In this document: positions 7,735 to 49,867 of the stretch, in pieces
Numbering within the stretch: position 1 is the first letter of the stretch
Layout of the letters: each line of letters opens with the position of its first letter
Assembly: GCF_004359215.1 (NCBI RefSeq)
Contig: NC_090615.1
Location: 7,323,457 to 7,387,456 of the forward strand
Direction of reading: 5' to 3'
Source: Bremia lactucae
Lineage: Eukaryota; Oomycota; Peronosporomycetes; Peronosporales; Peronosporaceae
DNA: 64,000 nucleotides
Notes under the pieces: generated by a model
The model's database searches: none
What the model was told of the DNA's origin: nothing
The model's input: only the letters and a program-made list of their open reading frames with translations
Made by a program: the position numbers and the translations under genes

Positions 7735-8690
7735 AGGAGTGATGCTCTCGGCCCATTGGCTCGAGGCCGTTGAGATATAGGGGGCATAAGTAGGGAGGCG
7801 TACTTTCTAAAAACATTTATTGGAAGACGTGCATCTCTTCTAAGATGCTCGAAGGGCTTGATAAGTTTCATACCTTTTAACAGCGCACGAAGCGTTCGAT
7901 TTTGTTAAGGACCTTCTACGGGAGAGGATGGTTCTCATCGTACTGACAAAAGAGACCCAAAACGTCCATCATTAGTAGGGAATGAGGTTGCAAGCTATCA
8001 TGCGAGGGTGAATACCTTGCTATCGATCAAGGTACTCGCCCGAACCCCCTTCACCTCACGGTAATTCAAGAAGCGTTCAACTCGTAAATGCATTTCACCA
8101 CTCGAATCCGTCCATGGATATGGAGGCGGAGGAAAGTCGGGTTCGCCTCATTCGCCGAATCCGAGTCAACTCCGTGACTTAGATCACGTCTTCCGTTATT
8201 TATGGGAGGACGCTGATCACCCAATCACCACCCTTTTGATTTACCGGAAGCTGAGGCTGAACTACAAATAAAATAATAAAGAAACAAATTTTAAGAATAA
8301 ACCAAAATGAACCTGATAAAATATCAATAAATTTAAACGTTCCCGTCGTCGCGAGTTTGCGTTGACGGTCAACGGTGTTTCTCGTGACCAATTGTAAAAT
8401 TGTGCGCAAGTTGCGGTTGATCGATTGGCGAACAAATCGACACATCAATCCCTTCAAAAACGATCTGGTGACAGCTCGCCAACAGCTCTCATCCTTGAAG
8501 GAAAGAATTGAACGTCTCGTTCACGAGAACCAAACTCTGTCCCGAGAATATCATACTAAGGCTCGAAGCCATCAGTATTTGGCGGATGCTTCAGAGTATG
8601 CCGCTGTAATTTGGAGCCGGAAGAAGCCTCGTACTGATGGTATGGGCGGAGACGCCCGACAAAAAATGTTGGATGCGTAAGCATCCTACG
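7735..8690 (+). pseudogene. Antisense ORF (aORF) copy of family A, C-terminal half
   Basis: Read on the plus strand this matches the reverse-strand frame at 28.5-30.2 kb and 48.1-50.6 kb. Shared pieces are NEVASYHARVNTL (8000), a Gly-rich stretch with HSPNPSQLRDLDHVFRYL (8140-8200) and the coiled coil DLVTARQQLSSLKERIERL to KARSHQYLA (8460-8585). It is convergent with the minus-strand integrase end at 8556-8900 and overlaps it. About 120 bp of AT-rich DNA (8216-8338) interrupts it relative to the copy at 9285-9490. Stops are present, so this is a relic. Confidence 0.6.
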
Positions 8691-8900
8691 AGGCAGCTCG
8701 ATCGTGTACGCATTGCCTTGGCGGTGCAGCACACGGAACGGGCCGATATACCTGGCAAGTAATTTATGACTGCCCGCATTGGTCACTACATGTTTTGGTC
8801 ATCCAAACTTCTCTCATTGCTTCAAAGATGGAGATAACAACGTTTTCCAATGCAGTCTCGTCGTCTGCACTGGCTTGCGCAGCGACCATTAATGAGAGCG
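8556..8900 (-). pseudogene. Integrase C-terminal domain, family A
   Basis: The minus strand encodes SHKLLARYIGPFRVLHRQG, NAYTIELPRRM and HPTFFVGRLRPYHQYEASS. This is the family A integrase C-terminal module, also seen at 11262, 28388 and 47880. Its end overlaps the aORF on the opposite strand. The part toward 8900 is a mutated remnant of the linker. Confidence 0.75.
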
Positions 8901-9284
8901 CTGGTTCTGACACAGAAAAGCCTGAGCCTAAAGCTCTGCCGACGACATGTGAGTGTTCTCAGTCGGTGTCACAAGTCAGTCGTATTAAACGTGGCTATGT
9001 GACGGGTGGCATACCAGGGCATCAGCTGCACCCTTAAATCAACAGGGACATGAGTTAGTGTAGGTTGTCGAGTAATGTTAATAGTACTAGCAAAGGTTGC
9101 CCCGTTCCATGACGAAGTACTTTTTGTCGACAACTTGAATACACAGATCTCGCACGATCGATGACATATTCTGAAGACAGCTCTCATTCCGAGATTTTAC
9201 ATAATAAATTTTCGGACAGAAAGCTCTATACAGAACATGTTAAACGATTATTTTATTGATCCCTACTATAAAAGCGTGAAAAGT
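8901..9284. other. Unassigned element remnant
   Basis: Short open frames on both strands are present but no domain can be supported. It lies between two pieces of family A and is presumably part of them. Confidence 0.25.
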
Positions 9285-9520
9285 TGCATGATCTTACAAT
9301 TGGTCACGATAAATACGGTTGACCGTCACCGCTAACTCGCGACGACGGGATCGTTCGTGATCAGCGTCCTCCCGTAAATAACGGAAGACGTGATCTAAGT
9401 CACGGTGTTGACTCGGGTTCGGCGAATGAGGCGAACCCGACTTTCCTCCGCCTCCATATTCATGGACGGATTCGAGTGGTGAAAAGCACTTTTTTTAGAT
9501 TAACGCTTTTTGAACCACCG
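9285..9520 (-). pseudogene. aORF fragment, family A
   Basis: Minus-strand translation gives RYLREDADHERSRRRELAV and TVNRIYRDQ. This matches YYLKEDLDHERAHRSELAV at 28.78 kb and LDHEQFRRRALAVTVDNV at 48.3 kb. The substitutions are conservative, which argues that the antisense frame once coded for protein. It ends at a junction near 9500. Confidence 0.55.
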
Positions 9521-9539
9521 TGATCAGAAGTTGGCATAG

Positions 9540-9645
9540 TCAGACGGAACGCGTCAATCGCGTCCTCGAAGAGATTGCCTGTTTAAAACTCCATACTAAT
9601 TTTACCTGTTTAAATTTCCAGACTAATCTTGCCTGTTTAAATGAA
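9540..9645 (+). repeat. Integrase scrap followed by three imperfect tandem repeats
   Basis: CAGACGGAACGCGTCAATCG (9540) encodes the QTERVNRV box that holds the catalytic Glu of gypsy integrase. It is followed by three imperfect copies of a roughly 27-bp unit, each with CCTGTTTAAA (about 9580, 9607, 9634). The repeats may come from polymerase slippage. Confidence 0.5.
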
Positions 9646-9698
9646 CACCTATAATGCACCAACCCACGATCAGCTTCTTACGGTACCAGATCAGGCAG

Positions 9699-9954
9699 CT
9701 AAACCTTCAAAAGGCAAATAGCCGTTTTATTTGGATCAATATATTTCAAATAGGTGACTGAGAGCATGCTTGGTTTCTTCAAGCATCTTGTTAGTGCTAC
9801 TATCCAAAATAGGATCGTCGACGTAGAGTGAAAATGCCGCAGCATGAGCATATGGATATGCACCGCAAGCAGTACATCGTGCGTATTGACGCCGCTGAAG
9901 CGTAAAAAAATATGGATATTCAACGGGACATTGACCTATCCAACCTAATAACAA
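9699..9954 (-). pseudogene. Ty1/copia reverse transcriptase fragment
   Basis: The minus strand encodes SLYVDDPILDSSTNKML and EETKHALSHLFEIY. YVDD is the copia RT catalytic box, and the following helix with a terminal FE resembles the usual palm sequence of copia RT. Only about 70 codons survive, with a frameshift just before YVDD. No other copia domains adjoin it. Confidence 0.6.
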
Positions 9955-10739: not shown

Positions 10740-11261
10740 CTTAAGTTGGAAACGAGGTTGCCAGCTATCATGCGAGGGTGGATACTTTCGAACGAGGTAA
10801 CTCGTTCGAACATAAACAAGACTGGTGTCCGAGGATGGTGCAGTCCGTTAATATAAAAAAACAGTGTCCTCGCCAGTACGGGTAAGAAACCGTTTTATAT
10901 TAACAGACTGCGCATCGTCAGACGCCAGTGTTGTTTATGCGAAGCCCGAGTCTTACTGAAGGAGGGCTCCTCACTATGCTCGGTGCGAAAGAGGAATGAA
11001 TTCGTCCGCAAGTACACACGTACTTGCGAAGCTTGTCAACGAGTAAAGTCAAGTGCTTGATTTCGTGCTCCGCTACAATCTCTGCCTGTTCCGGCAGAGC
11101 GTAGGCAGTCCGCATCTATGGACTTCGTTTTCGAATTTCCCTACGACAAGTAACGACAGAAAAGGAGCTCTGACAAAAATGGGAGAGCAAACATTCTTTA
11201 TTTAATATTAATGACCTTATCCTACTGTCGACAATAAATCAACCAAGAAACATAGTGACGA
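10740..11261. mobile_element. Mosaic of aORF and integrase scraps
   Basis: The 10750-10810 part matches the aORF motif region near 29.0 and 48.5 kb (GNEV, HARVDT). From 10850 a plus-strand integrase scrap repeats sequence found at 6627-6770. From about 11010 comes another integrase scrap like 46360-46500 (RTCEACQRVK, SADSVDFVF-like). The pieces are each 60-250 bp, joined without intact domains. Confidence 0.5.
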
Positions 11262-11580
11262 ATGTGGGCAGTAATTTATTACTGCCCAGGTATATCGGCC
11301 CGTTTCGTGCACCGCCAAGGCAATGCGTACACGATCGAGCTCCCTCGTAGGCTGCGTACGCATCCTACCTTCATGTTAAGCGTCTCCACCCGTACCATCA
11401 GTACGAGGCTTCTTCTGATTCTGGATTCACCGGAACGGTCTAGGGCATCCGCCAAAGCCTGATGGCCCCGAGTCAAAGCCTTATGGTCTCTGGACAGAGT
11501 CTAATTCTCATGAACCAGACGATCCACTCTTTCCTCCAAGAAAGAGATCTTCTGACGAGCTGACACCTCTATAAATTCTT
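11262..11580 (+). pseudogene. Integrase C-terminal domain, family A, with antisense aORF end
   Basis: The plus strand encodes RQGNAYTIELPRRLRTHPTF, the family A integrase C-terminal module. The minus strand over 11279-11580 carries the aORF C-terminal part (HQALADALDRSGESRIRRS). The convergent overlap of the two frames is the same as at 8.6, 28.5 and 48.1 kb. Confidence 0.65.
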
Positions 11581-11582
11581 AA

Positions 11583-12241
11583 ATGGTCGGAGACCGAGTT
11601 TTACTAAACGCTAAAAATCTACCTACCAACTTGGTTTCCGTGGTCTTCAAGACCAAATTGCGCCCGCGCTTTATTGGACCATTTACGGTCGTGGCCAAGA
11701 AAGGCCAACCTTATACGCTAAACTTTCCTAGCAAGCTGCGTACACACCCAGTGTTCTACGTTGGCTTGCTCAAGCCATATCGGGACCCTTCTTGAAGGCG
11801 CTTGCGCCGAGACAGGCGGTCGTGCCGCAGATTGCTCCATCCTCACCAGGATATCCAGCTGGCCCTCTAAACGAGGCTGCTGACGCTCCAGCGTCGAAAG
11901 ACGATCCCAAAACGCGTCAAAAGAGCTCTCAACCCGAGCAAGGACATCACGAAGAATTTGCACCTCGTGCCGTAGAGCATCAAGTGCTTCCACCGAAATT
12001 CGCCCCCCTTCCGCGCTGCTTGATGCGCGGAGGAACTTTCAGTTTCATGTGGGGAATTTTTTTAAAGCGACGTCGTCGTAAGGGTCAATACCAGTATCAG
12101 GTGAAGTGGCTAGGGTACCCCTCTTCTGAAAACTCTTGGGAGTTCGAGGTACCTCTTCGGCAAGATTGCCCGTACAACGTTGACGTTTTTGAGCGCCAAG
12201 CTCAGGGTCAACTCGCGTCAAACGACGCTTCCCACCACTAA
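11583..12241 (+). pseudogene. Integrase C-terminal domain plus chromodomain (chromovirus-type)
   Basis: Two plus-strand frames overlap at 11792-11795. The first (70 codons) has RPRFIGPFTVVAKKGQPYTL and THPVFYVGLLKPYRDPS, the integrase C-terminal module. The second (149 codons) has a Pro/Glu-rich linker and then QYQVKWLGYPSSENSWE (12090-12145), a clear chromodomain signature as in chromoviral integrases, which direct insertion to particular chromatin. The two frames would be one protein in an intact copy. There is no upstream core next to it, so this is a 3' fragment of an element. Confidence 0.8.
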
Positions 12242-14579: not shown

Positions 14580-16798
14580 ATGACAACAACGCAGTTCCAA
14601 CGCGTCTTTGGTGTTGACTTTGTACGTGACTGCTACCATCACTCACGTCGAAATCTTGTCTAACTATATGTTTAATCGGCTCTTCCTGACCCCGACAGGG
14701 TGCGCAACGATGCGTTGTTGCTGAGAGCAATGGCGACGTGGTGCCAAACGAGCTTGGTGCCATGACAACCGCCACAATCATCTCTTTTAAGGGAGAGGAA
14801 CGTCTTGTCGGGGAGTCGGCCGTGCTTGCGTCCAGCACGAATCCTTGCAACACGATCGGATTTCTTTCAGTACTTCTTGGTAAGAATCTTACGGACGTAC
14901 AGCGCCAGCTTGAGCGGCTGCCGGGTTGTCAGCCCACGTTTGAGGTCAACGAGGCTGATCACGTGGTAGCTCTAGTCACGTATGGTAAAAATGGAACCAT
15001 AACGAAACTTACAGTGGAGCAGCTTACTGGTATGCTACTCGCCGATCTAGCCTCGCAGATGAAGAAACGTTTCGTGGACGAGCCTTTGCATGCGCTCCAT
15101 GTAACATTGGCTGTACCATCAGTGTGGGTAGATAAGGAGAAGCGGGCTCTGCGGATGGCTGCGAAAATTGCTGGAATTCCGAGCTTGGCGATCATTTCGC
15201 GCGATGCGGCGCTGGCTCGCTGTTTCCACTGCAAACACCCGTTAAAGGCTTCTGCTCCTACTGATGATGGTGATGTCTGTATGGAGACTGCTCGCCACAT
15301 TGCAATTGTCGACATGGGCCACACTAGTACTAGTGTCACAATTGTGAAACTCACGCCCGCGGGTGAGACACTGGTTGCGACCGAGGCGGATGTTGAGCTT
15401 GGAGCCGAGACATTCGATCGTCGACTATTTGAGCATTTCCAGAATGAGGTGCAAGAAAAACACCAGCTAAGCGTAGTGCTTCACTCAAAAGAGGGAAAGC
15501 GCCTATACCATGCGTGTGAGAAGCTTAAGAGGCTGCTGTCTACCATTGGTGAGGCAAGTGTGACAGTGGAAAATCTTGCTCCTGAAAAAGACATCAATAT
15601 ATCGATTTCTCGCGATAAATTTCAAGCGCTTTGTACCGCTGAACGTAAAAATGTGACTGAGATGGTACAAAAAGCACTAGAGACGGCCCAGGATATAGTT
15701 GCCAGTGCCGATATTGCGGCGGTTGAAATTGTCGGTGGTGGTACTCGTATTCCGTTTGTACAAGAGGCCATCATTGCTGCTTTTCCTGCACAGCAGCATC
15801 GAAGCTCTACTCTTATTGGCCGGATGCTTGATTCTACTACTTCCATTGCTCTTGGTGCCGCGTATTTTTCAGAGGCAGCTACCACTGCTGTGACTAACGC
15901 GGTCGAATCCGTCGAGAATACGGCAGAGCTGGCTCGGTGTGTTGCGCTGGAGCAGGAGTTTCAAGCTCGTGATGCTCAGCTGATGGCCATTGCCGACGAG
16001 CGTAATGCCATTGAGGCATTTGTGTATGAAATACGTTCAAAGAGCAGCGGAAAGTTTGGAAATATGCTCGACGCATCTAAATTAAATCCTCTCTTGGAAG
16101 CCGCTGAGGACTGGATTTATTCTGAGGAGGCTGAATTTGCGACGCTGGATGCTATTAGCGCTAAGCGTAAAGCGATTGAAACGGAAATTCGCGCCGTGTG
16201 TGAAGATTACTTTTCTGCTATGGAGGCGGATGAACGTGCGTTAGAAAAGCAGCTCGAACAGGAATCTCAAAAGGCTGAAGCTGAACGTCAAGCGGATGGA
16301 GGCGATGAAGATCATGACATTCGCAAGCTAAAGAAGCCCGAGCGTATGCGCATGGTAGTGAAAAACAAAGAAGAAGGCAATGAGCTGTTTCGTGACGGTA
16401 ACTACAAGCATGCTGCTGCTCGCTATGTAAAGGCTCTGACGCATGCTTCTAAGTTCTTCGATTTGTCGGAAGCTGATAAAGAAGAAGTGAATTCTATAAA
16501 GCTCAGTCTGTATTTGAACCTGGCCCAGTGCTACCTTAAAATGGAAATCAATTCTAAAGTGGTGGCAAATTGCAATGAAGCATTGATTCTGGATCCCAAG
16601 AATGTAAAGGCTCTATATCGTCGCGCTGTAGCGTACGAGAAGGAGAATAAGGTTGAGCAGGCTGCTGACGACGTCAAGGCTGCTCTAAGAATCGCACCAC
16701 AAGACCGTACCGTCATCAAGCTCGATGAGCGTCTCAAGCTTTGTCTACGCCGCCAGCTCGAAAAAGAGAAGAAAATGTGGAGCAAGGCATTTGCGTAA
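14580..16798 (+). CDS. Hsp70-type ATPase fused to a C-terminal TPR domain
   Basis: The gene has two inferred exons, 14580-14621 and 14699-16798, with a 77-nt intron (gtacgt...acag), giving 713 aa. The splice restores the Hsp70 phosphate-1 strand (GVDF joined to GAQRCVVAESNGDVV). The nucleotide-binding domain covers about residues 8-405. It has divergent phosphate-2 (AIVDMGHTSTSVTI, residue 215) and adenosine (VGGGTRIPFVQEA, 358) motifs, closer to Hsp110-like than to canonical Hsp70. The beta-sandwich substrate domain seems absent. A helical lid-like part follows (ERNAIEAFVYEIR, about 440-545), then a charged linker and three TPR motifs (about 563-690: KEEGNELFRDGNYKHAAARY, LNLAQCYLKM, KALYRRAVAYEKENKVEQAA) of the FKBP/co-chaperone type. 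It probably acts in the cytosol as a chaperone or Hsp70/Hsp90 adaptor; that role is inferred. No EEVD tail is present. Confidence 0.9.
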
Positions 16799-20672: not shown

Positions 20673-22645
20673 CTACTGAATCGAGCAGTACGACCAAAAT
20701 GACCTATTTTGGTTGCGCTGGCGAGACAAAATTGACTCCTGCGTAGCTACATCTAAGTGCCCGCGACCTCTAGCAAACCGTCGGAGACGAATCTCATTGT
20801 CTTCTCGGACTAAGTCGAGCTTGTCAGGGTTTTTCTTCAGATAGTTTTGCAATTGGGCCAAAGCTTTCTCGGTTTCGGTTTGTCCTTGCTTCTTATACTC
20901 CGACTTCGATATTAAATTGCTGTGACGGCCAGGTTTTTCAAAGTGATACCAAAAATACGCAATCGTGGCAATAATTTCAAACATGCGCGTAAGTGATACG
21001 AGCAGTATCAACAGCATCGACGTTTCGGTAGATGAAGTGCTGTAAAGCAACAACGTCAAACCCGCCAGCTTTAAGGAACGCGAAACAATGAGCTGCAAAT
21101 TTGTGAGTGGAGGCAGCTCATCGTTCAAATGGCCAATTTCTTCGATTTCGTCTTCATCTTGAGCTTGTATCCCCGTCTGTGCTGACGCCCCCCATTGATA
21201 CCACCACACAAGCCCACAACCAAAAATGGCGAAAAAAACAAAGTAAAATTTTCCCAAGTGCGGCACGCCGAAAAGAACCTCGCGATTCCATAAAAAGACG
21301 AGGTACGAGATCGCCCAAGATCCGAGTCGATATAGACTGGGCATGATCACGAAGCCGGTAACTGGAAGCGCCACTGTTGCCATAGATAATAAAGTCGATA
21401 CTAGCTGAGCGCCTGGTATCATCTTGGTAGTATTTCGAGCTTGGCGCTGAAAGAGATAAAGAGCGAGAAGCGCTGAACAAAAGATTCCTCCAGTCGCACC
21501 GAGAAAGTAGTGAAAAGAGCGCGAGCGCGAGAGCCATTCCGATAAATAAAACAACAGTAGGCCGAGAATAAAGTTTTGTGTGTATACCCAAGATAGATCT
21601 GCGATACAATCGAAAGAATTGTTAAAAGTGTGCACAAGAAATGGGACACGCAGGCAAGAATACGCACATGTATAAAAAGTAAATTGAAAGTCAAACTGTG
21701 GCGTTGGAGTCATTAGAAAAGGCTGAAGGGGGCCTGCCACAGTGATACATGGAGCATGATACGGACTGAGCTTTAGCATGCACGAATTTTTAGCTTCCAC
21801 TTCGCTGCACTTGATCGGACAGCCACCGACACAATCTTCACACGCCATTTTAGCTATCAACAAGAAAATGAAGTCTTGTGAGTGTTAAAAAAAGTCAGGA
21901 TCGACAATTATGCAACGTACACGCCAAATTAAGAAGACTTTCAATCAAGTTGACGACAAAAGCAGGCAGATATTTTTCAAGCGTCGGAGTCGAGTCCGCA
22001 GCCTTAAAGACACTACGACAAAGCAATCCTGGGGCCCTTTATAATAGCATACTTACAAGTTATGTATTGCTGACGTCTTGTAGCAAATACTCACCGTGCA
22101 AATGTAAAGCTCAACTTGTCCACTTTCGGACTTTCCACCACGACACGTAATTCGCTCCAGGCCCAAAAGACAGGCCGTAGCGGCCACACAGCACTCTGCA
22201 AGTACCACAGCGTGGCATTAATCATCTGAAAAAGCGCCTTCGCCTCGTGCGACTGGCCTAGCGTCTGAATCAGAGCAGGTTGTAGAGCGCTGTTTATAGA
22301 ATAGTCGAATATTCAAAACCTCTTCATCTTCTGCAGTAATTGCGACAGCATATGATTCCTTTACCTGTTCAAAGGATCCATGCGCATGCGTAGGGACGCA
22401 TTCTTGTAAAAGCAAAAGGTGTTCTGGTGACCCCACTCAATCACTTCGCGCGTATCCGTGACGCCTTCGTCCAACCATCGGAAATGTATGCGGTCGGCTT
22501 CGGTCGCCACTGGATCATAGGTAGTGACTTCATTAACATTGATAAATCGATATTATCAAACTAAGGTCATACTAGAAGGCTTTGCGGTGGACTGCGTGAG
22601 TGCGGGCACGCAGCAGAGCAGCGCAATGGCCATCCGCAGTTGCAT
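20673..22645 (-). CDS. NEMP/TMEM194-like multi-pass membrane protein, five exons
   Basis: I infer exons 22645-22573, 22509-22365, 22289-22095, 22036-21921 and 21853-20673, giving 569 aa. The introns are 63, 75, 58 and 67 nt, all GT-AG, and every junction keeps the frame. Exon 1 encodes a signal peptide (MQLRMAIALLCCVPALTQS). Residues 25-265 are lumenal, with WPLRPVFWAWSELRVVVES and a Cys-rich CEDCVGGCPIKC. About five membrane segments follow (for example GLLLFYLSEWL, FHYFLGATGGIFCSALLALY, FVFFAIFGCGLVWWYQ, LAGLTLLLYSTSS, LLILLVSLTRMF). The order and the LKLAGLTLLLYS block resemble NEMP nuclear-envelope proteins. The C-terminal tail is soluble with charged helices. The last exon alone could be mistaken for a 391-aa gene. 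The nuclear envelope location is inferred from the family. The exon 4 acceptor (AAAG) is the weakest junction. Confidence 0.8.
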
Positions 22646-26640: not shown

Positions 26641-27880
26641 CAAGTCGTCCTGGTTTATATTCTACGGAGAAATTATACGCCGCGAAGAAGGAAAGACACC
26701 TCGCCATTCTTTGCGAGTGGTGTGGGCTATTTACGGCCGTGCATAATGACGCATGGTCCGCATATACGTTGTACAATCTATCTCCTAGGAGGTAGATCCT
26801 AAATTTAGCCAATGCATATTTCATGGCAAGGAGTTCCTTGTCATGCACTGGGTAATTGCGTTCAGCTGGTTGCAGCTGACGCGATTGGTAACAGACGACG
26901 CGCTCCGCGCCATCTGTATCGTATTGCATTAACGCACAGCCGATTGCGAAATCGCTGGCGTCACAGACCACATGGAATGGTCTGTCTTGATCTGCAATCG
27001 CCAAGATAGGCGATTGCATCAAGCTTTGCTTGATATCTTCAAAGGAACGCTGACAATCAGCGTGCCATAACCATTCTCCGTCTTTTTTGAAGAGACGAGA
27101 GAGATGATCTGCCTTCTCAACATAATTGCGGGAGTTCTTGTGCAAGTACGCCGCTAGCCCAAGGAACTTTCTAAGTCCCTTGACATCGACTGGAAATGGC
27201 CAGTCGGTAATTGCCTTGATCTTTTCGGGATCAGGGCGCACGCCGTGTTTACCGACGATGCACCCAAGAAGTGTTTTTTCGCTTGCAGCGAATATGCACT
27301 TCTCGAGATTTGCGTGCAACATGTGCTTTTGCATAAATGTAAAAATCTGACGAACGTGATTTTTATGAACTTCCACGTCCGCCTTTCTGTCAATTGTCTG
27401 ACTATGGACGAAAAAATCGTCAAAATAACTCGGTGCGAATTTTTGCACCGGACTCAACGGATTCGTTACGCATCTGTTGAAAGTTGCAGGAGCGTTACTA
27501 AGCTCCTGTGGCATTAATAGCTTTTTCCAAAGCATCCCACTGGGAGTGCTCACTGCTGTGTACGGGATGTCTTGTTCACGCATAAGGATCTGATAAAATT
27601 CATCCATCAGATCCATAGACGGAAAGATGGTACTCTTAGACATACCATCTATGATTACGTCTTTTCTAGGTATCGGCGTTTGAGCCGGTACCGTTGCAGC
27701 ATTCAGTTTATTAAATGCGTGCACTATCCGCCACCCTCCTGTCGCCTTCGGCACACAGAAGGTTGGAGAGCTATGTGGGGAGGTTGACCTCCTTTCATGG
27801 CCCGCTTTTACGCGACCGGTAAAGAATTTATCGATCGCAAGTACTTCTTCACGTGGCAGTGGCCACTGCTTCACTGACAC
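26588..27880 (-). CDS. Gypsy family A reverse transcriptase/RNase H, 430-codon open frame
   Basis: This is the longest open pol piece in the window. From 27880 it encodes the RT fingers (KFFTGRVKAGHERRS, ATGGWRIVHAFNKLNAATVP) and palm with SMDLMDEFYQILMREQDIP and TPSGMLWKKLLMPQELSNAP. The catalytic box reads SYFDDFFVHS. The connection (LLGCIVGKHGVRPDPEKIK, VKGLRKFLGLAAYLHK) and RNase H (FHVVCDASDFAIGCAL, DKELLAMKYALAKFR, EYKPGRLDVVADAV) follow. Both Asp of the FDD box and the first RNase H Asp are kept, so the active site may be intact. However, DEFYQ replaces the usual DGFYQ, and the start and end are cut: the frame ends in unrelated residues at a junction with plus-strand integrase. It is listed as a coding fragment, probably not an active gene. 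Confidence 0.8.
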   Translation of the reverse strand: MSVKQWPLPREEVLAIDKFFTGRVKAGHERRSTSPHSSPTFCVPKATGGWRIVHAFNKLNAATVPAQTPIPRKDVIIDGMSKSTIFPSMDLMDEFYQILMREQDIPYTAVSTPSGMLWKKLLMPQELSNAPATFNRCVTNPLSPVQKFAPSYFDDFFVHSQTIDRKADVEVHKNHVRQIFTFMQKHMLHANLEKCIFAASEKTLLGCIVGKHGVRPDPEKIKAITDWPFPVDVKGLRKFLGLAAYLHKNSRNYVEKADHLSRLFKKDGEWLWHADCQRSFEDIKQSLMQSPILAIADQDRPFHVVCDASDFAIGCALMQYDTDGAERVVCYQSRQLQPAERNYPVHDKELLAMKYALAKFRIYLLGDRLYNVYADHASLCTAVNSPHHSQRMARCLSFFAAYNFSVEYKPGRLDVVADAVRLREIRKRSP

Positions 27881-27960
27881 AGTACTTCGAGCCCGGTTTG
27901 AGCTCGATCTAATGTCGAGTGCCTTAATCCATAGGCAACTCGCATGGAACTATCTAGGGA
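27881..27960 (-). pseudogene. Pre-RT linker scrap
   Basis: This continues the RT frame upstream on the minus strand, matching 59370-59430 and 61140-61190. It ends where plus-strand integrase sequence begins at about 27960. Confidence 0.45.
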
Positions 27961-28565
27961 ATACAAGGACTCGCTCGAGCAAAAAAAAAGTTTAGCTCTT
28001 GCTCATCACGCATTAGCACTAAGGTCAATGCGAAAGATACTAATGTTGATTTAATTTACATTGAGGTGGACAAACTCAGTAATAACAATAATGTTATTAC
28101 TGACTTTAATAACGATGCTGAAAGACTTAACATCAAAAAGAAAATTATTAATGAGAACGATAATACTCTTAATAACGAATAGATTTAAATACCGCAGTGC
28201 GAGCCGGTCGCACTGAAAACAAAAAAAGAGATAGCAGGTAATTTTTTTTGGCTTGAGAAGCATGGGTCCGTCTTGTACAGGAGTCCATCGCTGATGCGGT
28301 GGACCAACAGAAACGGAAGACAACATACCATCAATTAATTCTAATAACCCAGTCGTACTGTCTACGGTTGACCTTCTGAAACATGTCGTGATGAAGGCAG
28401 TGATAAATTACTGCCCAGGTATATTGGGCCGTTTTGTGTTCTACATCGCTGCCTCGTGGTATGCGTGCGCGCATCCTACGTTTTATGTTGGGTATCTATG
28501 GGTACGAGGCTTCTTCCAATTCCGGGTTACACCGGAACGGTCGAGGGCATCGCCAAAGCCTGATG
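27961..28565 (+). pseudogene. Integrase linker and C-terminal domain, family A
   Basis: The first part (to about 28330) encodes an Asn/Asp/Lys-rich segment (EVDKLSNNNNVITDFNNDAE) between core and C-terminal domain. The second part has the C-terminal module, damaged (YCPGILGRFVF, HPTFYVG; 28388-28500). A stop near 28180 and frameshifts are present. It overlaps the aORF end on the minus strand. Confidence 0.65.
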
Positions 28566-30192
28566 GTTTCGAGCCAAAGCCTTGTTGTCTCGGAACATAG
28601 TCTGATTCTCTTGAACCAGACGATCCACTCTTTCCTTCAAGGAAGAGATCTTCTGACGAGCTGTCACCAGCTCGTTTTGAAGGGACTGACATGTCCTCTT
28701 GTTCGCCATTTGTTCAGTCGCAACCTGCGCACAATTTTTCATATGGTCACGAAACACATTGTCGACAGTCACCGCTAACTCGCTGCGATGGGCTCGCTCG
28801 TGATCAAGATCCTCCTTTAGATAATAAGAGGAGTGGTCCAATCACGATGTTGATTCGGGCTCGTCAAATGAGTCGATCCCGATTCCCCCCCCTCCACATC
28901 CGTTGACAAATTCGAGTGATGAGAAGCATTTTCATGTTGAAAGCTTCTTGAACCGCCGTGAGGTAAAGGGGGTTCGAACGAGTCATCTCGTTCGTTGGCG
29001 AGGGTATCCACCCTCGCATGATAGTTAGGAACCTCGTTCCCAACTGATGTTGGACGGGTCTCGTCTTGCAGTACGATGAGAACATCCGCCTCGACAGAGA
29101 GTCCATCAAGAACGAACGTTTCCCGCGCTCGTAATAGTATTGAAGGTTCTCAATCCCTTGATGCATCTTGTTAGATGAGCGTCCTCAAATGAGAATCTTT
29201 AAGGGAATATTTCTTTGCTCTCTACCTCAAGCTTTGGGGTACATGCTTCTTTAGAGGCATGACCTGCCCCTTTAAAACAGCATTGACATGAGTCCCCCCA
29301 CGAAAGGCAAGGAATTCCTGCCTGTCTAGACAAACGTTGTAGCTTATAGTGTGCACCGACTACGGTCCGTTTCTCGAACCGTTCACGGAGAGCATTTAGC
29401 TTGTCAGGCCTATGTTTTGCATATTGAGCACAAAGGCTGTCCAAGCTTGGAGCAAAGGTTTGCATCCTTCCCCCGCATAGAAGAGTACTACCGATGCCGA
29501 TAAAGAATTCCGTCTCATTCTCACCAGTGAAGCCTGGCTGAGTCAAATAACGGAATGTGATATCGATCGTTGTCATACCAGACCAACGAATTAGGTTATT
29601 CTTCGAGGGGAAACTATGTCTATTTTCAGGAGCGAGCCGCAACGTTTTGCGATTCCTCTCTTGATGGCGCATGTTAACGTTAACTTGGCCCTTGAAGCAA
29701 TCCCTAGAATCACTCCTTTCCTGGCGTATGCAAACTAGCACCACCAGTAACACTCTTCCCTACAGATCACTTAGTTTCTAGTGACGTATACTTAGTCACC
29801 AGAGTGATCATCGCCCACGAAGTCACCATCCGATGACTCCCCACCAAACTCGTCATCACCTCTTAGGTTGTCACATTAGAAACCAAAGGTTTAACGGACT
29901 CGTCCTTAGGTGATCCGGCGGCATTTACAGTAGCCACTGAGTCGGGCGGTGCCGGTGACTTGGTCCAGTCACCTACAATTGGTGTAGCAGGTGACTTGTC
30001 ACCGTCACCTGCAATTATATTATCAGATGACATATCTCAGTCACCTTCAATTGGGGTAGGAGGTTACGTATTCCACACAGTCGACGCATTAGCGTCTACT
30101 TAAACATTTGCAATACTAACAGCTGCACTAATCCGTGCAGCTGCCAGCTTTGCGGCCTCACGGGCCACGCGCACAGACTTGTTTGTCGCCAT
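28527..30192 (-). pseudogene. Antisense ORF (aORF) of family A, most complete copy
   Basis: On the minus strand from the ATG at 30192 (MATNKSVRVAREAAKLAAAR) the protein continues in one dominant frame with scattered stops and shifts. The N-terminus is a basic helix. An acidic Thr/Pro/Asp stretch follows (PATPIVGDWTKSPAPPDSV, GESSDGDF). Then a 184-codon open piece (29753-29199) has FTGENETEFFIGIGSTLL, SLCAQYAKHRPDKLNALRE and a Cys cluster (CLSWGDSCQCCFKGAG). A Gly/Ser/His-rich part precedes a coiled coil (ELVTARQKISSLKERVDRL, 28640-28700). The frame sits between integrase (plus strand, overlapping by about 40-100 bp) and the 3' LTR at 30337. I do not know the protein; the Cys cluster might bind zinc or RNA. 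Confidence 0.55.
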
Positions 30193-30336
30193 GTTGATCT
30201 CGGTCAAAATCAATAAGGCAAATAATAACGGTATTTTGATTAAAATCAATAATGCAAAATTACACGGAAAGACATAATAGTATTTCCGGTCACCCTACAT
30301 CAGTCGCAATAGTGACTGTTAGTTAAGGTGGGGTGA
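30193..30336 (+). other. 3' non-coding end of family A with polypurine tract
   Basis: AAGGTGGGGTGA (30325-30336) directly precedes the LTR and is a good polypurine tract for plus-strand priming. The equivalent GATTAAGGGGTGGTGGTGA lies before the LTR at 50860. A small repeat CAGTCGCAATAGTGACTG lies just upstream. Confidence 0.55.
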
Positions 30337-30818
30337 TGAAATGGGGTGTCTCGTTTCATAGGTATTATTTCCTATAAGAGGAAATAAACAAAGAAATACG
30401 AAATTATATCTTCATTAATTTTAACTTAAATAGTACTCATATTACCAAATTTGGTAATTGATACAATAAAACATTAGGTCTATTGATCGGTTGATTTAAG
30501 TCTAAATCAGTCCAGTCAATCATTATAAGACAAGGATAGTGTGGATCGCAAGGACGCGACATCCTTAGTTAAATATTAATATAATACGTTCAGAAGTAGA
30601 TAGATGATCGTTACTTAGGAAACTAAATACATTAATACAGCTTTACTATTCTCTATTGATAAGCCTTAGTCTAGACCTGTAAGCTAAAGACCCTAAGATC
30701 CATAGAAACCTTCCTCTGTAACTTTGTGTACGTGTAATTTCGAGGCATCTCACCTACATTGTAATCAGTGTAAGGTTAACTAGTACTGATCAGTACTATT
30801 GAAAGGTGCCCCGTTACA
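30337..30818 (+). repeat. LTR, family A, 3' LTR of the pol-aORF unit
   Basis: The start is a mutated TGAAATGGGGTGTCTCG and the end GGTGCCCCGTTACA. It aligns by eye along its length with 50860-51317. Orientation is plus, the same as integrase at 28.0-28.5 kb. Confidence 0.75.
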
Positions 30819-30949
30819 CAAGTGGTGGGTCTAATTACTTCACTTGTGTGGGGCAACTTTCATTGCGAATAGGTGCGAATCCAGCGTGGGAAATGCGTCG
30901 TCTGTGTACGTGCTACATGTGATGCTCACTCACAGGCTTCACCACCGAG

Positions 30950-31282
30950 CTAAGAAGTTGTCATCACCACTTTTGTTGTTCTGTTAGGATCATGGCAGGG
31001 GTATGGCCATTTCCATATGTTTCGATCCAAACAAGGAGATTTTCTCTCTCTTGTCCTCATATGTCTCAACACTGACAACAAGAGGGCAAGCCTTAGGCTC
31101 CTGATCAGGTACAGGAATTTACCGAGTTGCATAAATGCTGCTAAGTGGTCCGATATAGAAAGATTCATGTTGCAGAAAGGCTTTAAGCCTTGCAACAAGA
31201 ACCTTTGGGCCCTGAAAAGGATGTGATCTCTACGATCCAGCCCAAACAAATTTGTAAGGTTATCAAACGCTACGCGTTTCAC
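30950..31282 (-). pseudogene. Possible Ty1/copia gag fragment
   Basis: The minus strand is open for 110 codons (FDNLTNLFGLDRRDHILFRA, NLSISDHLAAFMQLGKFLYL, LALLLSVLRHM). The pattern of a short helix with SISDHLAAF followed by LLSVL resembles the UBN2-type gag of copia elements. No zinc knuckle is seen, so confidence is low. Confidence 0.35.
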
Positions 31283-32259
31283 CCCTAAAAGTTTGAGAAA
31301 TGGATCTATGTCAGCAGACGCTCGGACTTATAAAGACTCAGGCGTAGATTGGCGAATCGGACTTAATTCATTAAGATTATACGAAAAACTAAACTTTAAT
31401 TAAAATTTAAAATGTGGAACCTTACCTTAATTCCACCAGATCTCTATCTGGTGGCTACTACTCGTATTTCGTATCACCTACATAAAAATGGGATTGTTTT
31501 AGCCAATCAGAAGCCTTACTTATTGCGCTCCGCATATTTTTTTTCACGATAAAAAAACATCGTTTTGAATCGGGCTGGGTCAAGTTGATCTACTCTCCAT
31601 ATCCTTCTTTTTGACTTGTAAACAAGCGGGTCCTACGAATTATTATCAATCACAATACATTCTCTATATCACACTCAATTTCTACTTTCTTCCTTGTCAG
31701 GCTGTTCTACAATGCTTCCACCACACCACCCAATGCATCCTTTCCCAGCACAATGGCCCTGACGGATGCAGCTCGCGAATTCGCTCATGCAGAAGGATAT
31801 GCTGTGTCTACCCTAAATTCCGACAAAAAGAAGATTATTTTGTAATGCGATCGACGTGGTACCTACCTGCAAAGGGCAGCAACATGACTTGAGTTGCCGC
31901 GAAACTCTGCGAGCCGATTGACTAATTGCCCGTTTCGTCTATCAGGGCGTCTACCAAGCGATAACAGCTTGCAACTGCGAACTTTTCATAGGGAACATAA
32001 TCATGAACCTTCAGACAACATAAGTAGTCATCCGACTGCCTGACGCTTTCAATCAGAGCAAAATTTGTTAGTACAAAAACTTCTTAAGGCTGGGATTGCG
32101 CCGAAAGAAATTGTCACAACCCTACGCCAAATAGATCCCAGCACAAAAGCAATAGGAAGGACAATCTACAACGAGCGCCAGCGGTGCGAGCAGAAGAGCT
32201 TCGCAATCGTACACCACTGGACGCTCTATTTGACATTCTGCATCATGCAGAGTGGGTTT

Positions 32260-41343: not shown

Positions 41344-43124
41344 ATGCCTTCCGTGCCTGAATCGGTCAAAATAGACGATCATCTCGCTACTGACCAAGTC
41401 GAAGACGATCCAGTGCCTTTGTATCTCGAACACACATGGACCCACGTGGTGCTTAAAATGACGGCGTTTACCGAAGAAGATACCGTCACAAGCTTTACGT
41501 TTGATGAGAAAGGAGGCGGTATTGGCCAAACTTGTGAGAATATTGCAAGTATACCTGCCGATACACTCCTTGCAGAGACCGACCACGCACGTGTGCTGTA
41601 TAGTCACGGGCGTTTCTATTTAGTCAATGGCGACCAAGCAAATGGGGACACGTTTGTGCGGTTAAGTCCCGTGGAAACCCAAGCAAATGACGAAAATATG
41701 GGCGATCGTATGCAATGGCCTCTCGAGCCTCACGTGGCATTTCGAGTTGGAAAATCGGATTTTCTTGTTACATCGTTTCACGAAGAATTGCCAAGTCTTA
41801 CGGTCTCGGCATTAAGTGGCAAATTAGCTGGCACGGAGTTTGTGATTACACAAGAAGGTGCAGGAATTGGTCGATCTGCGGAGAATCAAATCCATACAAG
41901 TGATGGGGAACTCTCTCGAAAACATGCTGCAATTTGGTTTGATGAATTGACGAATCAATTTTATTTGATTGATTTAAACTCGACGAATGGGACATTTATG
42001 AAACTCGTGGGAAGTTATCAAGAACCCTATCGACTGGAAATTGGCGACGATTTACTCGTGGCACAAACGTGTTTAACTGTCAATCGGTTTGACTTTGGAG
42101 CGCATGCCGACATGGGCGCTCGTAAACATATGGAAGACGCGCATACGATTATTCAAGACTTGTGTATTGAACCATTAAGTCGTTTGGGATTGCATCCCCA
42201 GTCATTCTTTGCTGTCTATGACGGCCATGGCGGTGACGAAGCATCTTCGTTTTTGAGTGACGTGCTCCACCATAGCCTCATTACCGCGTTTTTCATGCAC
42301 ACGAGTGAATTGAAACCTTTACTAACAATGACAATTGAGGAATTGCAATCAATCATCATGAAGCGCTTGACCAATGCGTTTGAACGTACGGATGAAGAAT
42401 TTTTAAGGACCTCGGATCGTCCGCAAGCTGGAAGCACGGCCACGACAGTCTTTGTGGCGGGCAAGTATCTCTTTGTGGCCAACGTTGGAGACTCGCGCAC
42501 TGTCTTGAGTCGCAATGGCACAGCTGAACGACTTTCAAATGATCATAAACCCAGTCGAACGGACGAAGCGCAGCGGATTCGAGAGACTGGCGGCTTTGTG
42601 ATTCACGGACGTATTATGGGCGAATTGGCCGTCTCGCGTGCCTTTGGCGACGCCCCTTTCAAGTCGTTTGATCTCGTCGAGCCTTTGGTCGATGACATTG
42701 ACACGAAAGCACGGAACGAGTACAATTCGCAGGAATTACCGGTGAATCCCAACGATATTTTAAAAGGTCCATTAGTGATTCCGACGCCAGAGTTTACCGT
42801 CACGGAATTAACAGACGAGTGCGAGTTTGTGATGCTCGCAAGTGACGGATTGTATGATGTGTTGAAAGATCAAGAAGCTGTGGATTTTGTTCGTCGAAAA
42901 CTTGTCGAATTGAAAGATGTGCAACGGGCTGTTGAGGTGTGTGAGTGAGTGGATTGTGCTAGATGATGCTTGTGGTGGATTAATGGCGCGATTCTCTCTC
43001 GTTTTTCTTTGTGTAGGCGCTTATTGAGTATGCCATTTTTCATCAGCGGTCGACCGATAATGTGACATGTGTCGTTGTGATGTTTAAAGAGGCGAAAGAA
43101 ATAGTGTGGCAAAGTTCCTCGTAA
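41344..43124 (+). CDS. FHA-PP2C protein phosphatase
   Basis: I infer two exons, 41344-42936 and 43017-43124 (80-nt intron, gtgtgt...gtag), giving 566 aa; a 5' exon is possible. Residues 30-135 look like a degenerate FHA fold (GGGIGQTCENI, HVAFRVGKSDFLV). Residues 155-245 are a second FHA domain with the phosphothreonine-binding pattern (GAGIGRSAENQIH, LSRKHAAIWF, LNSTNGTFM). The PP2C domain covers 250-560: MGARKHMEDAH, FFAVYDGHGGDEASS, LFVANVGDSRTVLSR, GELAVSRAFGDAPFK, LASDGLYDVL and, in the last exon, STDNVTCVVVMF. The metal-binding Asp residues are present. Without exon 2 the domain would lack its last strand and DN motif, which supports the intron. It likely dephosphorylates Ser/Thr substrates recognised through FHA binding of pThr; the substrate is unknown. 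Confidence 0.88.
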
Positions 43125-44589: not shown

Positions 44590-45460
44590 GTTGAATTTTA
44601 GGATGTCTTCCCTGAATCAGTACCGTGCGAGTTGCCTAACGACAAAGGCACTCGACACGAAATCGACCTTATCCCAGGTTCGAAATACTGTGGTATGAAT
44701 CAATTGCCGTTGCGTCGTGAACAAGTAATAGCGATCGACAAATTCTTTGCCGAATGCTTAGCAGCGGGCCATGTGAGGGAATCAACTTTCCCACATAGCT
44801 CTACAACCTTCTGTGTGCGCAATGCAACAGGAGGTTGGCGGATAGTGCATGCATTCAATAAACTGAATACTGCAACTGTACCGGCTCAAACGCCGATACC
44901 ACGAAAATATGTAATCATTGATGGCATGTCAAAGAGTACTATCTTTTCGTCAATGAATCTGCTGGATGGATTCTATCAGATCCTTGTGCGTGAACAAGAT
45001 ATTCCGCTCACAGCAGTAATCACCCCCAAGTAGTATGCTATGGGAGTGGCTAGTCATGCCACAGGGGTTTAGTAATGCCCCTGCGACATTTGACAAACGT
45101 GTAACCAATCTATTGAGATCGGGGCGGGATTTTGTACCGAGCTATTATGATGACGACTTCGTTCATAGCAGACCCATGAACGGAACGCCGGATGTTGAAG
45201 TTCATCGTATCCACGTCCGAAAGGTTCTTACCCTTATGCGTAAGCACAAGTTGCATGCAGAAATGTATATTCGCTGCAAGCGAAATACCTCTTCTTGGGT
45301 GCATCGTGGGTAAACACGGTGAATGCCGCGATTCAGAAAAAGATCAAGGCGATCACCGACTGGCTTGTACCAGTCGATGTAAGGGACTAAAACAGTTCCT
45401 CGTTTAGCGGCATTTTTGCACAAGTACTCACGTACTTGTGCTAAAATGACAGTATATCTT
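44590..45460 (+). pseudogene. Family A reverse transcriptase relic
   Basis: The pieces are KGTRHEIDLIPGSKYCGMNQ, ATGGWRIVHAFNKLNTATVP and SSMNLLDGFYQILVREQDI, where the first catalytic Asp position reads Asn. After a TAG at 45032 come MLWEWLVMPQGFSNAPATFD and PSYYDDDFVHSR, which keeps DD. Further frameshifts occur near 45190 and 45310. The plus-strand order with RNase H and integrase downstream is normal. Confidence 0.85.
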
Positions 45461-45985
45461 TCTTCTTTGTTGAAGAAAAAACGTAAAGTTGTCATGGAAC
45501 CCTGATTGTCAGCTTTCCTTCGATGATATTAAGAAAAGCTGGATGCAATCGCCAATCCTGGCGATTGCAGACCGAGATCGACCTTTTCATGTCGTCCCTG
45601 ACGCCAGCGATTTTGCATTCGGCTGTGCGTTAACGCAATATGTCACAGACGGCGCAGAGCGCGTCGTCTATTTTCAATCGCGTCAATTTCAACCAGCGAA
45701 CGCAACTATTTAGTGTATGATAAGGAACTCCTTGCCATGAAATACGCACTGGCTAAGTTAGGGTCTACCTCTTGGAAGATAGACCGTTCATTGAATATAC
45801 GGACCATGCGTCTTTACGCACGGCCATAAGCAGTCCACACCTCTCGCATAGAATGGCGAGATGGTTGTCTTCCTTTGCGGAGTATAACTTCTCCGTGGAG
45901 TATAAATCAAGACGACTAAGCGTTGTCGCTGATGCCCTTTCGCGCCGGCCCTATTTTGAGCTGGCTGCGCAACAGTGACCATAAG
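45461..45985 (+). pseudogene. Family A RNase H relic
   Basis: The pieces are WNPDCQLSFDDIKKSWMQS, FHVVPDASDFAFGCALTQYV (45585-45645) and, after a frameshift, YTDHASLRTAISSPHLSHRM and EYKSRRLSVVADALSRRPYF, ending in a TGA near 45977. The core Asp and fold are recognisable. Confidence 0.85.
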
Positions 45986-46159
45986 ATCACTGTTGCAATA
46001 ATAAGTGTTCCGATGTCAACATTAAATGACGACGTTAGAAGAGCTTAACATGAAGATAAGGCTCTTACAGGGTTGATGGATTACCTAAGAGATCCATCCC
46101 AACAATCCTTAGAAGGGTTGTCGAAGTTGTATCGATCCTCAACAGATAGATATACAACG

Positions 46160-46690
46160 CGCAACGGTTAATTGTATTGTTCAGCCATTGCTGGCGACAC
46201 ACCTCGTGTCATCATCCCTACCCATAATGATCTGCGATTACGCATCATGTATGAGTACCACGATGCACCAAAAAGTGGTCATCGTGGACGGGAGAAGACA
46301 TTTCTCACGATAAGTTCCGACTTCTACTGGCCACGCCAGTATGTGTTCGTCCACAAGCACATACGTGCTTGAGAAGTTTGTCAACAAGAAACCCCAGTGC
46401 TTCATCCCGTGCCCAGTGCTTCATCCCGTGCTCCGTTACATCCTCTGCCTTTTCCGGCAGAGTGCTGGCAGTCCGTATCTATGAACTTCGTCCTCGGATT
46501 CTTTGAAGTCACCCATAAGAATAATGGTATTCTTGTTTTTGCTGAGCGTTTAAGCAAGATGGTACATCTTGCTGCCGTCCCGGAGTCGATCACAGCCAAA
46601 AGCTGTGCTCGTGGCTTTATTAAAACGATCTTTTACTTGATGGGTTACATTTTGAACTGGTCTCAGATCGAGACCCTCGATCCACGGCGG
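46160..46690 (+). pseudogene. Family A integrase zinc finger and core, first part
   Basis: The pieces are HNDLRLRIMYEYHDAPKSGH, YWPRQYVFVHKHIRA (HHCC finger), PFPAECWQSVSMNFVLGF, in which MNF stands where other copies have MDF (first catalytic Asp lost), then LVFAERLSKMVHLAAVPESI. The core breaks off at about 46690 where foreign DNA begins, and resumes at 47161. Confidence 0.8.
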
Positions 46691-47160: not shown

Positions 47161-48066
47161 GTGTTCAAATCACTTGGATCACATTTAAAAATGTCAACTT
47201 CTGATCATCCTGAAACAGATGGTCAGACGGACCGTGCAAACCGTATTCTCTAAGAGATACGTCTCGGACACGTCCACTCTTTTGACAGCTGGAGCGAGTT
47301 CTTGCCGATGTAGAATTTGCCATCAACAATTCAGCGCATGCTTCTACAAAGCATACACCATTTTTCGTGAATGGCTTACGACACCCTCGTATCCCTATGC
47401 TGTTTGAGAGTAACTCTTATTTAAGGGGGGAGGGACTCGCTCGAGCAAAGAAGCTTTAGCTCTTGCTCATGACTCATTAGCCCTAAGGTTCAATGCGAAG
47501 GATACGAATGTTGAGTTTACTAACATTGAAGTGGACAAACTCAGTAATAACAGTTATGCTTTTACTGACTTAGACAACGATGCTGGAAGACTCAGCATCG
47601 AAAACAATACTATTAATGATAATGCTCTCAATCGTGAAGAGATGAATATCTCCGCAGTGCGAGCCGGTTGCACTGAAACAAAAATAAAATCGAGTCAGCA
47701 GGTGGTTTCCTGCTGGCTAGCGAAGCAGTGGTCCATTTGTACGGGATTCCATCGCTAGTGCGGTGGACCGACAGATACGGAACTCTGACAAAAATGGAAA
47801 AGCAAACACACTTAAATTTAAAATTAATGACCTAGTCATACTGTCTACGGTAAACCCACCAAAGCACGTAGTGACGAGTGTAGGCAGTAATAAATTACTG
47901 CCCAGGTATATCGGCCCGTTTCGTGTATTACATCGCTAAGGCAATGCATACACGATCGAGCTGCCTCGTAGAATGCGTACGCATCCTACTTTTTTTGCTG
48001 GTCGTCTCCGCTCACGCCATCAGTACGAGGCTTCTTCCGATCCGGATTACACCGGAACGGTCAAGG
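47161..48066 (+). pseudogene. Integrase core end, linker and C-terminal domain, family A
   Basis: Core sequence resumes (47161-47420: LGSHLK-like, DHPETDGQTDRANRI, EFAINNS in frames). The Asn/Asp-rich linker follows at 47440-47790 (VDKLSNNSYAFTDLDNDAGR, INDNALNREEMN). Then comes the C-terminal module at 47880-48030 (NKLLPRYIGPFRVLHR, AYTIELPRRMRTHPTFF). Stops and frameshifts are frequent. The end overlaps the aORF on the minus strand. Confidence 0.75.
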
Positions 48067-49060
48067 GCATCAGCTAAAGCCTTATGGCTCCCAGCTAAAG
48101 ACTTATTGTCTCAGAACAGGGTCTATTTCTTTTGAGCAAGACGATCCACTCTTTCCTACAAGAAAGAAAATCTTCTGACGAACAGTCAACAGCTTCTTTT
48201 CGTTCGCCAGTTTGTTCAGTCTCAATCTGCGCACAACTTTTTACCTGGTCACGAGAAACATTGTCGACCGTCACCGCTAATGCGCGGCGACGAAATTGCT
48301 CGTGGTCAAGATTCCCTCTTAAGGAAAAAAGGGTGTGATTCGAATTACAATGCTGAATCGGGCTCGTCAAACGAGGCGAATCCGATTCCCCCCCCACATC
48401 CATTGATGGGTTCGGGTGGTGAGAAGCGCTTTCTTGTTAAAAGATTCTTGAGCCACCGTGAGGCAAAGAGGTTCGAGTGAGTTATCTCGTTCGTTGGCGA
48501 GGGTGTCCGCCCTCGCATGATAGTTGGGAACCTCGTTCCTAACTGATATTGGACGTTCCGGGTCTCGTCTTACATTACGACGAGACCCATCCTCCTTGGT
48601 AAAAGGTCCAACGGAGAACGAGTGCTTCCCGAGCAAAAAAGTATTGAAGGTTATCGATCCCTTGACGCATCTCGTAAGAGATGAGAGTCCTCCAATGGGG
48701 ATCTTTGAGGAATATGCTTCCTTAGGGCATTTACCTGCACCCTTAAAACAGCATGGACATGAGTCTCCCCACGAGAGGCAAGAATCCGTGCCTCTCTAAA
48801 CATAGGGTGCAACTTATAGGGTGCACCGAGTACGGTCCGTTCTGGAACCGTTCACGGAAAGCATTTAGCTTGTCAAGCCAGACCTCACAGCCTATGTTAT
48901 GTACATTCTATACAAAGGCTGTCCAAGCTCGGAACAAAGGTTTGACATCCTTTGTTCGTTTGCAAGTGTACCACCGATGCCGGTAAAAGGCATTGATGAA
49001 GAATTCTGTTTCAACCTCACCAGGCTTGTGAAGCCATGATGAGTCGAATATCGGAATATG

Positions 49061-49349
49061 ATAATCGCCAAGATGGGCTATCGCATCAAGCTTTGCTTGA
49101 TACCTTCAAACGAACGCTGACAATCAGCATTCCATAACCATTTCGTCTTTTTTCAAGAGACGAGAGAGATGAACTGTCATCTCGGCATAATTGCGAGAGT
49201 ACTTGTGCAAGTACGCCGCTAAATCAAGGAACTTTCTAAGTCCCTTGACATCGACTGGAACTGGCCAGTCGGTGATTGCCTTGATCTTTTCGGGATTAGG
49301 GCGCGCGCCGTGTTTACCGACGATGCACCCAAGAAGTGGTATTTCGCTT
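49061..49349 (-). pseudogene. RT scrap inserted in the aORF
   Basis: The sequence matches the minus-strand RT of 26588-27880 (connection region, near 27000-27290 in that copy) and is cut at both ends. The join with aORF sequence is at about 49061 and 49349. Confidence 0.65.
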
Positions 49350-49867
49350 TTGATCGTTGGTCACACCAGACCAACGAATGAGGTTTCTCTTAGAAAGTAA
49401 CCAAGGCCTCATTTCAGGAGCGAACCGCAACGTATTGCGGTCCGTCTCCTGCTGGCGCATGTTAACGTTAACGTCAACTTGGCCCTGGGGGCGATCTCTA
49501 GATTCATCCTTTTTTCTGGTGATACAAACTAGCACCACCAGCAGCACTCTTACCTTCGCGACCACGCTATTCCTGGTGACAAACACTAACGTCACCAGAG
49601 TTTTGGTCATCGCCCTCGGAGTCATCTGATGATGACTCCCCGCCAAAGAGGTCCGACAAGTTTAACAACCTCGTCACCATGTTTTTGTAGTCACGTTAAG
49701 AACCAAAGGCTTAACGGGCTGGGCCCGGTGGGAGAGGTGATCCGGCGGCCTTCCCAGTCACCACTGAGTCGGGCGATGCAGGTGACTTGGACCAGTCACC
49801 TACGACTGGTGTAGCGGGTGACGTGTCCCCGTCATCTACATGTCATCAACAGATGACAAACCCCAGT

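Follow-up and report, generated by a model that had tools for sequence, protein, structure and literature searches.

A Probable Antisense Gene between Integrase and the 3′ Long Terminal Repeat in a Chromodomain-Bearing Ty3/gypsy Family of Downy Mildews

Introduction

Can a retrotransposon keep a second gene on the strand opposite to its own pol? The question is raised by a 64,000-nucleotide (nt) stretch of the Bremia lactucae genome (contig NC_090615.1, positions 7,323,457 to 7,387,456; hereafter the window, whose own positions are used below), in which a first-pass annotation noted a long frame (MATNKS...) running against pol between the integrase and the 3′ long terminal repeat (LTR) of a gypsy element. 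According to the report of the published assembly of this species, gypsy elements make up 53 of 91 Mb of sequence in an assembly of 115 Mb that includes 24 Mb of gaps (PMC6570648), and an extra gene retained in a gypsy family may bear on element spread. Here we conclude that the frame is very probably a genuine gene, placed antisense between integrase and 3′ LTR in a Ty3/gypsy family whose pol ends in a chromodomain. This reading is carried by the orientation of the frame, the coding constraint on its core, the conservation of its protein in other downy mildews and a division of constraint between the strands where the frame overlaps pol, all of them observed.

Coding Constraint on the Antisense Frame

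To follow the frame at the codon level, intact public proteins served as tblastn queries for assigning codons, and substitutions in all six frames were tallied on independent alignments of the nucleotides; residues are numbered throughout as in the public protein P0001. The analysis of old copies included 24 copies, with window piece 9200-9700 left out and with L013 and 11200-11700 lacking mapped codons. Younger copies were found by a search with the intact public proteins, most having stops and few being open; the set comprises six (five fetched plus L059) and yields up to 15 pairs, window pieces 7500-9000 and 11200-11700 being also left out. Over the core of the protein (residues 110-330), the ratio of nonsynonymous to synonymous rates (dN/dS) in the antisense frame has a median of 0.50 over 184 pairs. 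Since pairs sharing copies are not independent, disjoint pairs were analysed as well: in ten of these the ratio of nonsynonymous to synonymous proportions (pN/pS) is 0.55, with pN below pS in 10/10 (chi-square p=3.9e-16). Younger copies give 0.43 (residues 110-300, 15 pairs), and young against old copies 0.28 (6 pairs, 227 codons). Control frames 1-4 stay at 0.94-1.13 in the 184-pair analysis, at 0.90-1.30 over the old, disjoint and younger sets, and at 1.15-1.50 for young against old. The remaining frame, frame 5, whose third positions coincide with those of the antisense frame, is low as well (0.57 in the 184-pair set, 0.46-0.63 overall, about 4% stops) because of wobble coupling with the antisense frame. 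Stop counts show no opposite-strand frame open over the core, in a count biased toward the protein frame because codons were assigned by tblastn against intact proteins. Thus, a ratio near one was looked for outside the overlap and values of 0.43-0.55 were found instead; an equally conserved sense frame was looked for in the core and none is open, the low frame 5 reflecting coupling. The conservation exceeds what chance would give: the core is constrained below every control frame bar the coupled one and the protein is kept in other genera. The antisense frame is kept by natural selection. Residues 1-110 give 0.50 among the younger copies.

Copies in the Window and Element Polarity

The copy that raised the question (copy A) is dead. 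Its antisense frame (28527-30192, minus strand), followed by translations and BLASTN, is broken by stops and frameshifts: the peptides claimed for it are present in the translations, but the continuous long frame is not, plain translation giving 29 stops because the reading switches frame. The longest open piece (29199-29753, minus), the sole listed open reading frame (ORF) of at least 150 amino acids (aa) inside the unit, covers the conserved core with a CLSWGDSC motif. Opposite copy A, on the plus strand, lies the chromodomain that ends pol (about 28930-29046; PF00385, E=1.5e-5, 25.3 bits, the cut-off being 25.1); the same strand has a weak remnant of the integrase SH3-like domain (28384-28452; PF24626, E=0.0038, below cut-off). 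As had been proposed, the frame starts beside a purine-rich tract (30325-30336, plus), a polypurine-tract candidate judged by eye and from analogous tracts in other copies, which precedes the 3′ LTR (30337-30819, plus; TGAAATGGGG...CCCCGTTACAC in pol sense).

A BLASTN search of the window with the unit (27000-31500, reverse strand) recovers its recurrences at the places named earlier, at 70-86% identity. Copy B carries its antisense frame on the minus strand in several pieces across 47433-50708 (47433-49063, 49352-49867 and 50489-50708), and RT through chromodomain on the plus strand: reverse transcriptase (RT), RNase H and the integrase zinc-binding domain at 45035-46390, the integrase SH3-like domain (SH3_Tf2-1) at 47829-48011 (PF24626, E=4e-11) and, within the antisense frame, the chromodomain at 48474-48581 (PF00385, E=1.3e-6); the matched part of its 3′ LTR is at 50868-51317 (plus). 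Partial copies stand at 7842-8795 (plus, inverted relative to copy A; 7842-8220 and 8342-8795), 9301-9523 and 11267-11567 (both minus). The overlap with the end of pol on the opposite strand thus holds in both main copies. Opposite polarity of pol as a whole stands for the plus-strand domains of A and B but fails left of about 27967, where copy A is rearranged and an RT and RNase H piece (26675-27967, minus; matches about 27754-26675) is joined at a breakpoint, in an order that differs from the family.

Polarity was therefore judged across the genome (115.9 Mb in 220 contigs searched), in ten 10-kb loci picked by a long open frame among matches to the N-terminus of the antisense protein. RT lies downstream of the antisense frame on the opposite strand in six of the ten (L009, L010, L012, L014, L015, L018); L011 and L013 have no RT match, the matching RT of L017 is upstream of the antisense frame, and L016 has gag and RT matches further downstream on the same strand as the frame. 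The pol strand of L015, opposite the antisense frame, carries gag, RVT_1, RNaseH, H2C2 and rve in order (gag E=9.1e-5; gag and rve just under curated cut-offs). RT through chromodomain follow in order on the pol strand of L012, whose scan gave no gag match; L017 shows H2C2, SH3-like domain and chromodomain, and L049 a chromodomain. An opposite-strand chromodomain match was found in eight of ten loci scanned (the matches of L012 and L049 fall short of the curated cut-off; missed in the scans of L015 and L016, the latter scanned in part), the best (E=1.7e-13) lying inside the antisense frame. Direct-repeat LTR pairs were found in four of six loci tested (L009, L010, L014, L015; not in L012 and L018), and their identity of 72-81% marks these copies as old. 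Read in pol sense, the LTRs have the inverted ends TGTAACGGGG...CCCCGTTACA. After the 5′ LTR, the same four loci and one minus-strand window copy share a motif near CTGGTAGCACTTCGTAGTCCG, part of which is also present in a second window copy; a purine-rich tract directly precedes the 3′ LTR, adjoining the antisense start. The family is a Ty3/gypsy LTR retrotransposon with a chromodomain C-terminal to integrase. A 1014-aa open frame adjoins the element in L017 (6873-9914, reversed orientation).

The Predicted Antisense Protein and Its Relatives

Among the older copies L049 is the best preserved; it retains the whole frame with one stop, and its 360-residue part matched 97 proteins when used as query, many of them full length at 488-574 aa. 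Full-length homologs in Peronospora matthiolae form two clusters, one with 524 members and the other with 1335; P. effusa matches measure 374-593 aa, some being full length, and those of Hyaloperonospora (H. arabidopsidis) are shorter (286-463 aa). Named proteins of Peronospora and Hyaloperonospora share 38-45% identity with P0002, and none of the named proteins among the 97 + 12 hits of two protein searches, many of which are unnamed, is from Phytophthora. Judging from these homologs, the frame appears to encode an undescribed protein of about 490-590 aa. Two members from H. arabidopsidis, P0085 and P0096, bear the UniRef name "RxLR effector candidate protein," probably a misannotation; P0169, from the same species, carries the source name "Core-binding (CB) domain-containing protein," and NCBIfam found no family in it.

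In an alignment of 18 public proteins, a block that reads GARYKLHRLSREAGLPCLSWGD in P0002 is strongly conserved and contains ten invariant columns. The predicted Cys cluster is there: H269, C279, C286 and C289 are kept in 13/13 sequences counted, P0061, P0069, P0070, P0085 and P0087 having been dropped from the 18, and the H-C-C-C spacing could be compatible with zinc binding. The AlphaFold2 model of P0002 has a helical core and a 90-residue helix at 417-507, in keeping with the coiled coil previously proposed; confidence is low at 18-139 and 336-411, which are therefore taken as disordered. The "basic helix" of the first-pass annotation fares poorly, the net charge of the first 30 residues ranging from -2 to +4 in eight proteins. 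At the other end stands a basic tail (KKQRTDSTGGGGQRKT in P0002) which, we infer, resembles a nuclear signal. In eight sequences of the protein no Pfam family scored above its cut-off, and no gag family matched at E<=10.

Overlap with pol and Division of Constraint

Where does pol end beneath this gene? Its end lies opposite residue 314 in L062, L063 and L064, three of the five loci with a readable end, and comes sooner in L059 and L060 (opposite residues 340 and 360); the motif marking it was unmatched in L049, L017, L012 and copy B. From about residue 314 to its end, the antisense gene overlaps the integrase tail and chromodomain over about 660 nt, in a phase that sets antisense third positions opposite pol second positions. 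Some copies remain readable in both directions: L064 has its antisense frame open over 664-1944 and its pol frame open from position 1247, leaving both strands open for 698 nt, as they are at 1627-2256 in L060 (630 nt) and at 1326-1916 in L063 (591 nt). On the antisense-gene strand of L063 there is also a 222-aa frame (2735-3400, reversed orientation), by eye gag-like and of another element.

Among younger copies, pN/pS of the antisense frame is 0.68 over residues 335-420 and 0.56 over 420-532, and that of pol is 0.44 and 1.19 over the same regions. The chromodomain is therefore kept opposite a disordered antisense linker, and the coiled coil opposite unconstrained pol. Young against old copies give 0.37 for pol at 335-420 (57 pairs). 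Disjoint old pairs agree weakly in direction, with 0.75 for the antisense frame at 420-532 (p=0.027) and, for pol, 0.69 at 335-420 (p=0.007) and 1.18 at 420-532 (p=0.25). Control frame 2 is also low among younger copies (0.68 in 1-110, 0.59 in 335-420). Constraint is thus divided between the strands among the younger copies, a clear case of two proteins encoded on opposite strands of one segment, with constraint at different places on each.

Alternative Explanations and Proposed Function

Several observations weigh against a selected antisense gene. Most copies of the frame in this genome are broken, and the pairs in both the old-copy and the younger-copy analyses share copies. Residues 1-110 are unconstrained among old copies (median 0.84, 18 pairs), and at 335-420 the antisense frame reaches 1.36 for young against old (57 pairs) and 0.87 in disjoint old pairs (p=0.33). 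Among the 18 aligned proteins, P0061, P0069 and P0070 lack C286 and C289 through a gap, and in P0087 Tyr replaces C279. Domain and fold searches gave no match pointing to a function, and the basis throughout is DNA and protein sequence, with the DNA context drawn from one genome.

The minus-strand RT beside copy A had first suggested another identity for the frame: gag, or a gag-like first gene, belonging to a second element that inserted in reverse and has its own RT on the strand of the frame. The same-strand gag and RT of L016 point the same way. Position 27967 in copy A is, however, a breakpoint, six of the ten loci have RT downstream on the opposite strand, the gag match of L015 (just below its curated cut-off) shares its strand with pol, pol polarity also fits the LTR ends and the motif that comes after the 5′ LTR, and eight sequences of the protein matched no gag family at E<=10. 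A gag belonging to an opposite element was thus looked for and not found, and the polarity of the other copies leaves this idea scarcely credible. It is equally hard to believe that no protein exists and that pol and base composition, by excluding opposite-strand stops, are all that keeps the frame open. Such frames can indeed stay open by chance, and the wobble-coupled frame is also low in pN/pS; yet the core lies outside pol (in the two loci where pol is read to another end, that end is opposite residue 340 or 360), no other frame is open there by a count that favours the protein frame, and homologs in Peronospora and Hyaloperonospora remain recognizable at 38-45% identity. Capture from the host, with only the last part grown over pol, has a precedent in the gene capture described for such elements (PMC7264820), and we consider it improbable; against it, as weak evidence, no ordinary host gene is named among the hits, most being unnamed or "uncharacterized," and no Pfam family is found above cut-off.

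A further alternative accepts the protein and disputes its role, making it a structural or targeting partner, for instance in particle assembly or integration, rather than a regulator. A helical core followed by Cys cluster and coiled coil would also suit a nucleic-acid-binding structural protein. The pol strand already has gag and a chromodomain, and antisense synthesis seems better suited to timing or regulation; neither consideration is a test, and we hold the structural role to be unlikely but well worth keeping in mind. Returning to the antisense gene as a gene of the element, one kept by selection probably does something for it. The frame is presumably transcribed and translated: an antisense mRNA would begin in the 3′ LTR or just internal to it and give a protein of the predicted length, with a disordered acidic N-terminal part, the helical core with its H-C-C-C cluster, a long coiled coil and a basic tail. 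We tentatively suggest, at somewhat less than an even chance, that the product is a dimeric nuclear accessory protein which binds element DNA, RNA or chromatin and regulates expression or silencing.

Other Features of the Window

From about 29202 to 50702 the window seems to belong to a block of at least 20 kb, including a PP2C+FHA gene, with seemingly many undiverged copies. The core piece 29202-29753 occurs at 34 places including the window at 100% protein identity, and 41344-42948 within the PP2C+FHA block at 27 places including the window, at 100% over 1605 bp. By comparison, 14738-16798 and 20673-21863 occur once each in the genome, and the 40 copies scored for 58692-59222 include no other that is identical. 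The block may be a very recent large mobile segment, the outcome of segmental amplification or an artefact of assembly. There is also a second core relative (60% identity, 5 stops), which has 28 occurrences in this genome at equal score and is perhaps another frozen multi-copy segment. The single-copy region 20673-21863 (minus) holds a 396-aa ORF with a NEMP-family match (PF10225, E=5.2e-13).

Comparison with Known Systems

Antisense genes in this position were said to exist in plant elements, and the Retand antisense ORFs are such a case (PMC11963269, PMC7264820). As described there, they are antisense to gag-pol, adjoin the 3′ LTR and occur group-wide and across species (PMC11963269); Retand elements are non-chromoviruses, with the antisense ORFs in a 2.9-6.6 kb region after pol, nearly all groups encoding TRP28 (PMC11963269). 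The downy mildew family likewise has an ORF antisense to pol and adjoining the 3′ LTR. Unlike Retand, its element bears a chromodomain, and unlike Retand/Tat its antisense gene does not sit in a long region downstream of pol but overlaps pol from residue 314 to the end. TRP28 (PF04195) had no match at E<=10 in eight sequences of the protein. The antisense additional ORFs of Grande, RIRE2 and PvRetro13, whose hosts are plants rather than oomycetes, are likened to it by position and orientation; of these, gene23 of Grande is reported to be transcribed from its own upstream promoter and to have a nuclear product (PMC7264820). Closer in host is Chronos, a Ty3/gypsy element of Peronosporales that has two RNase H domains and whose pol carries a chromodomain at its 3′ end; the word "antisense" is absent from the main text of its description (PMC5348765). 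The downy mildew family shares that chromodomain; a second RNase H was found neither between RT_RNaseH and H2C2 (copy B, L015) nor upstream of H2C2 (L017) at E<=5, in copies that are decayed. Among retroviruses, HBZ of human T-cell leukemia virus type 1 (HTLV-1) is a basic leucine zipper (bZIP) protein encoded at the 3′ end, its transcript coming from an antisense promoter in the 3′ LTR. Its gene is antisense to gag-pol-env (PMC11963269), and the downy mildew frame is similarly antisense to gag-pol; no bZIP match was found in eight sequences of its protein with Pfam, and we claim no relation to HBZ.

The position is therefore known from plant Retand, and, as far as the sequences indicate, domain content, host group, chromodomain and long overlap differ. 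A fuller proposal, which we put forward as more doubtful than the nuclear accessory role above, is that the C-terminal half of the gene overprinted the integrase-chromodomain end of pol, the strands coming to share the constraint, and that the product, confined to downy mildew elements, is a zinc-binding dimeric nuclear regulator which arose in parallel with, and independently of, the antisense genes of plant Retand and HTLV. The family makes testable the idea that antisense regulators arise again and again at the 3′ LTR of distant retroelements.
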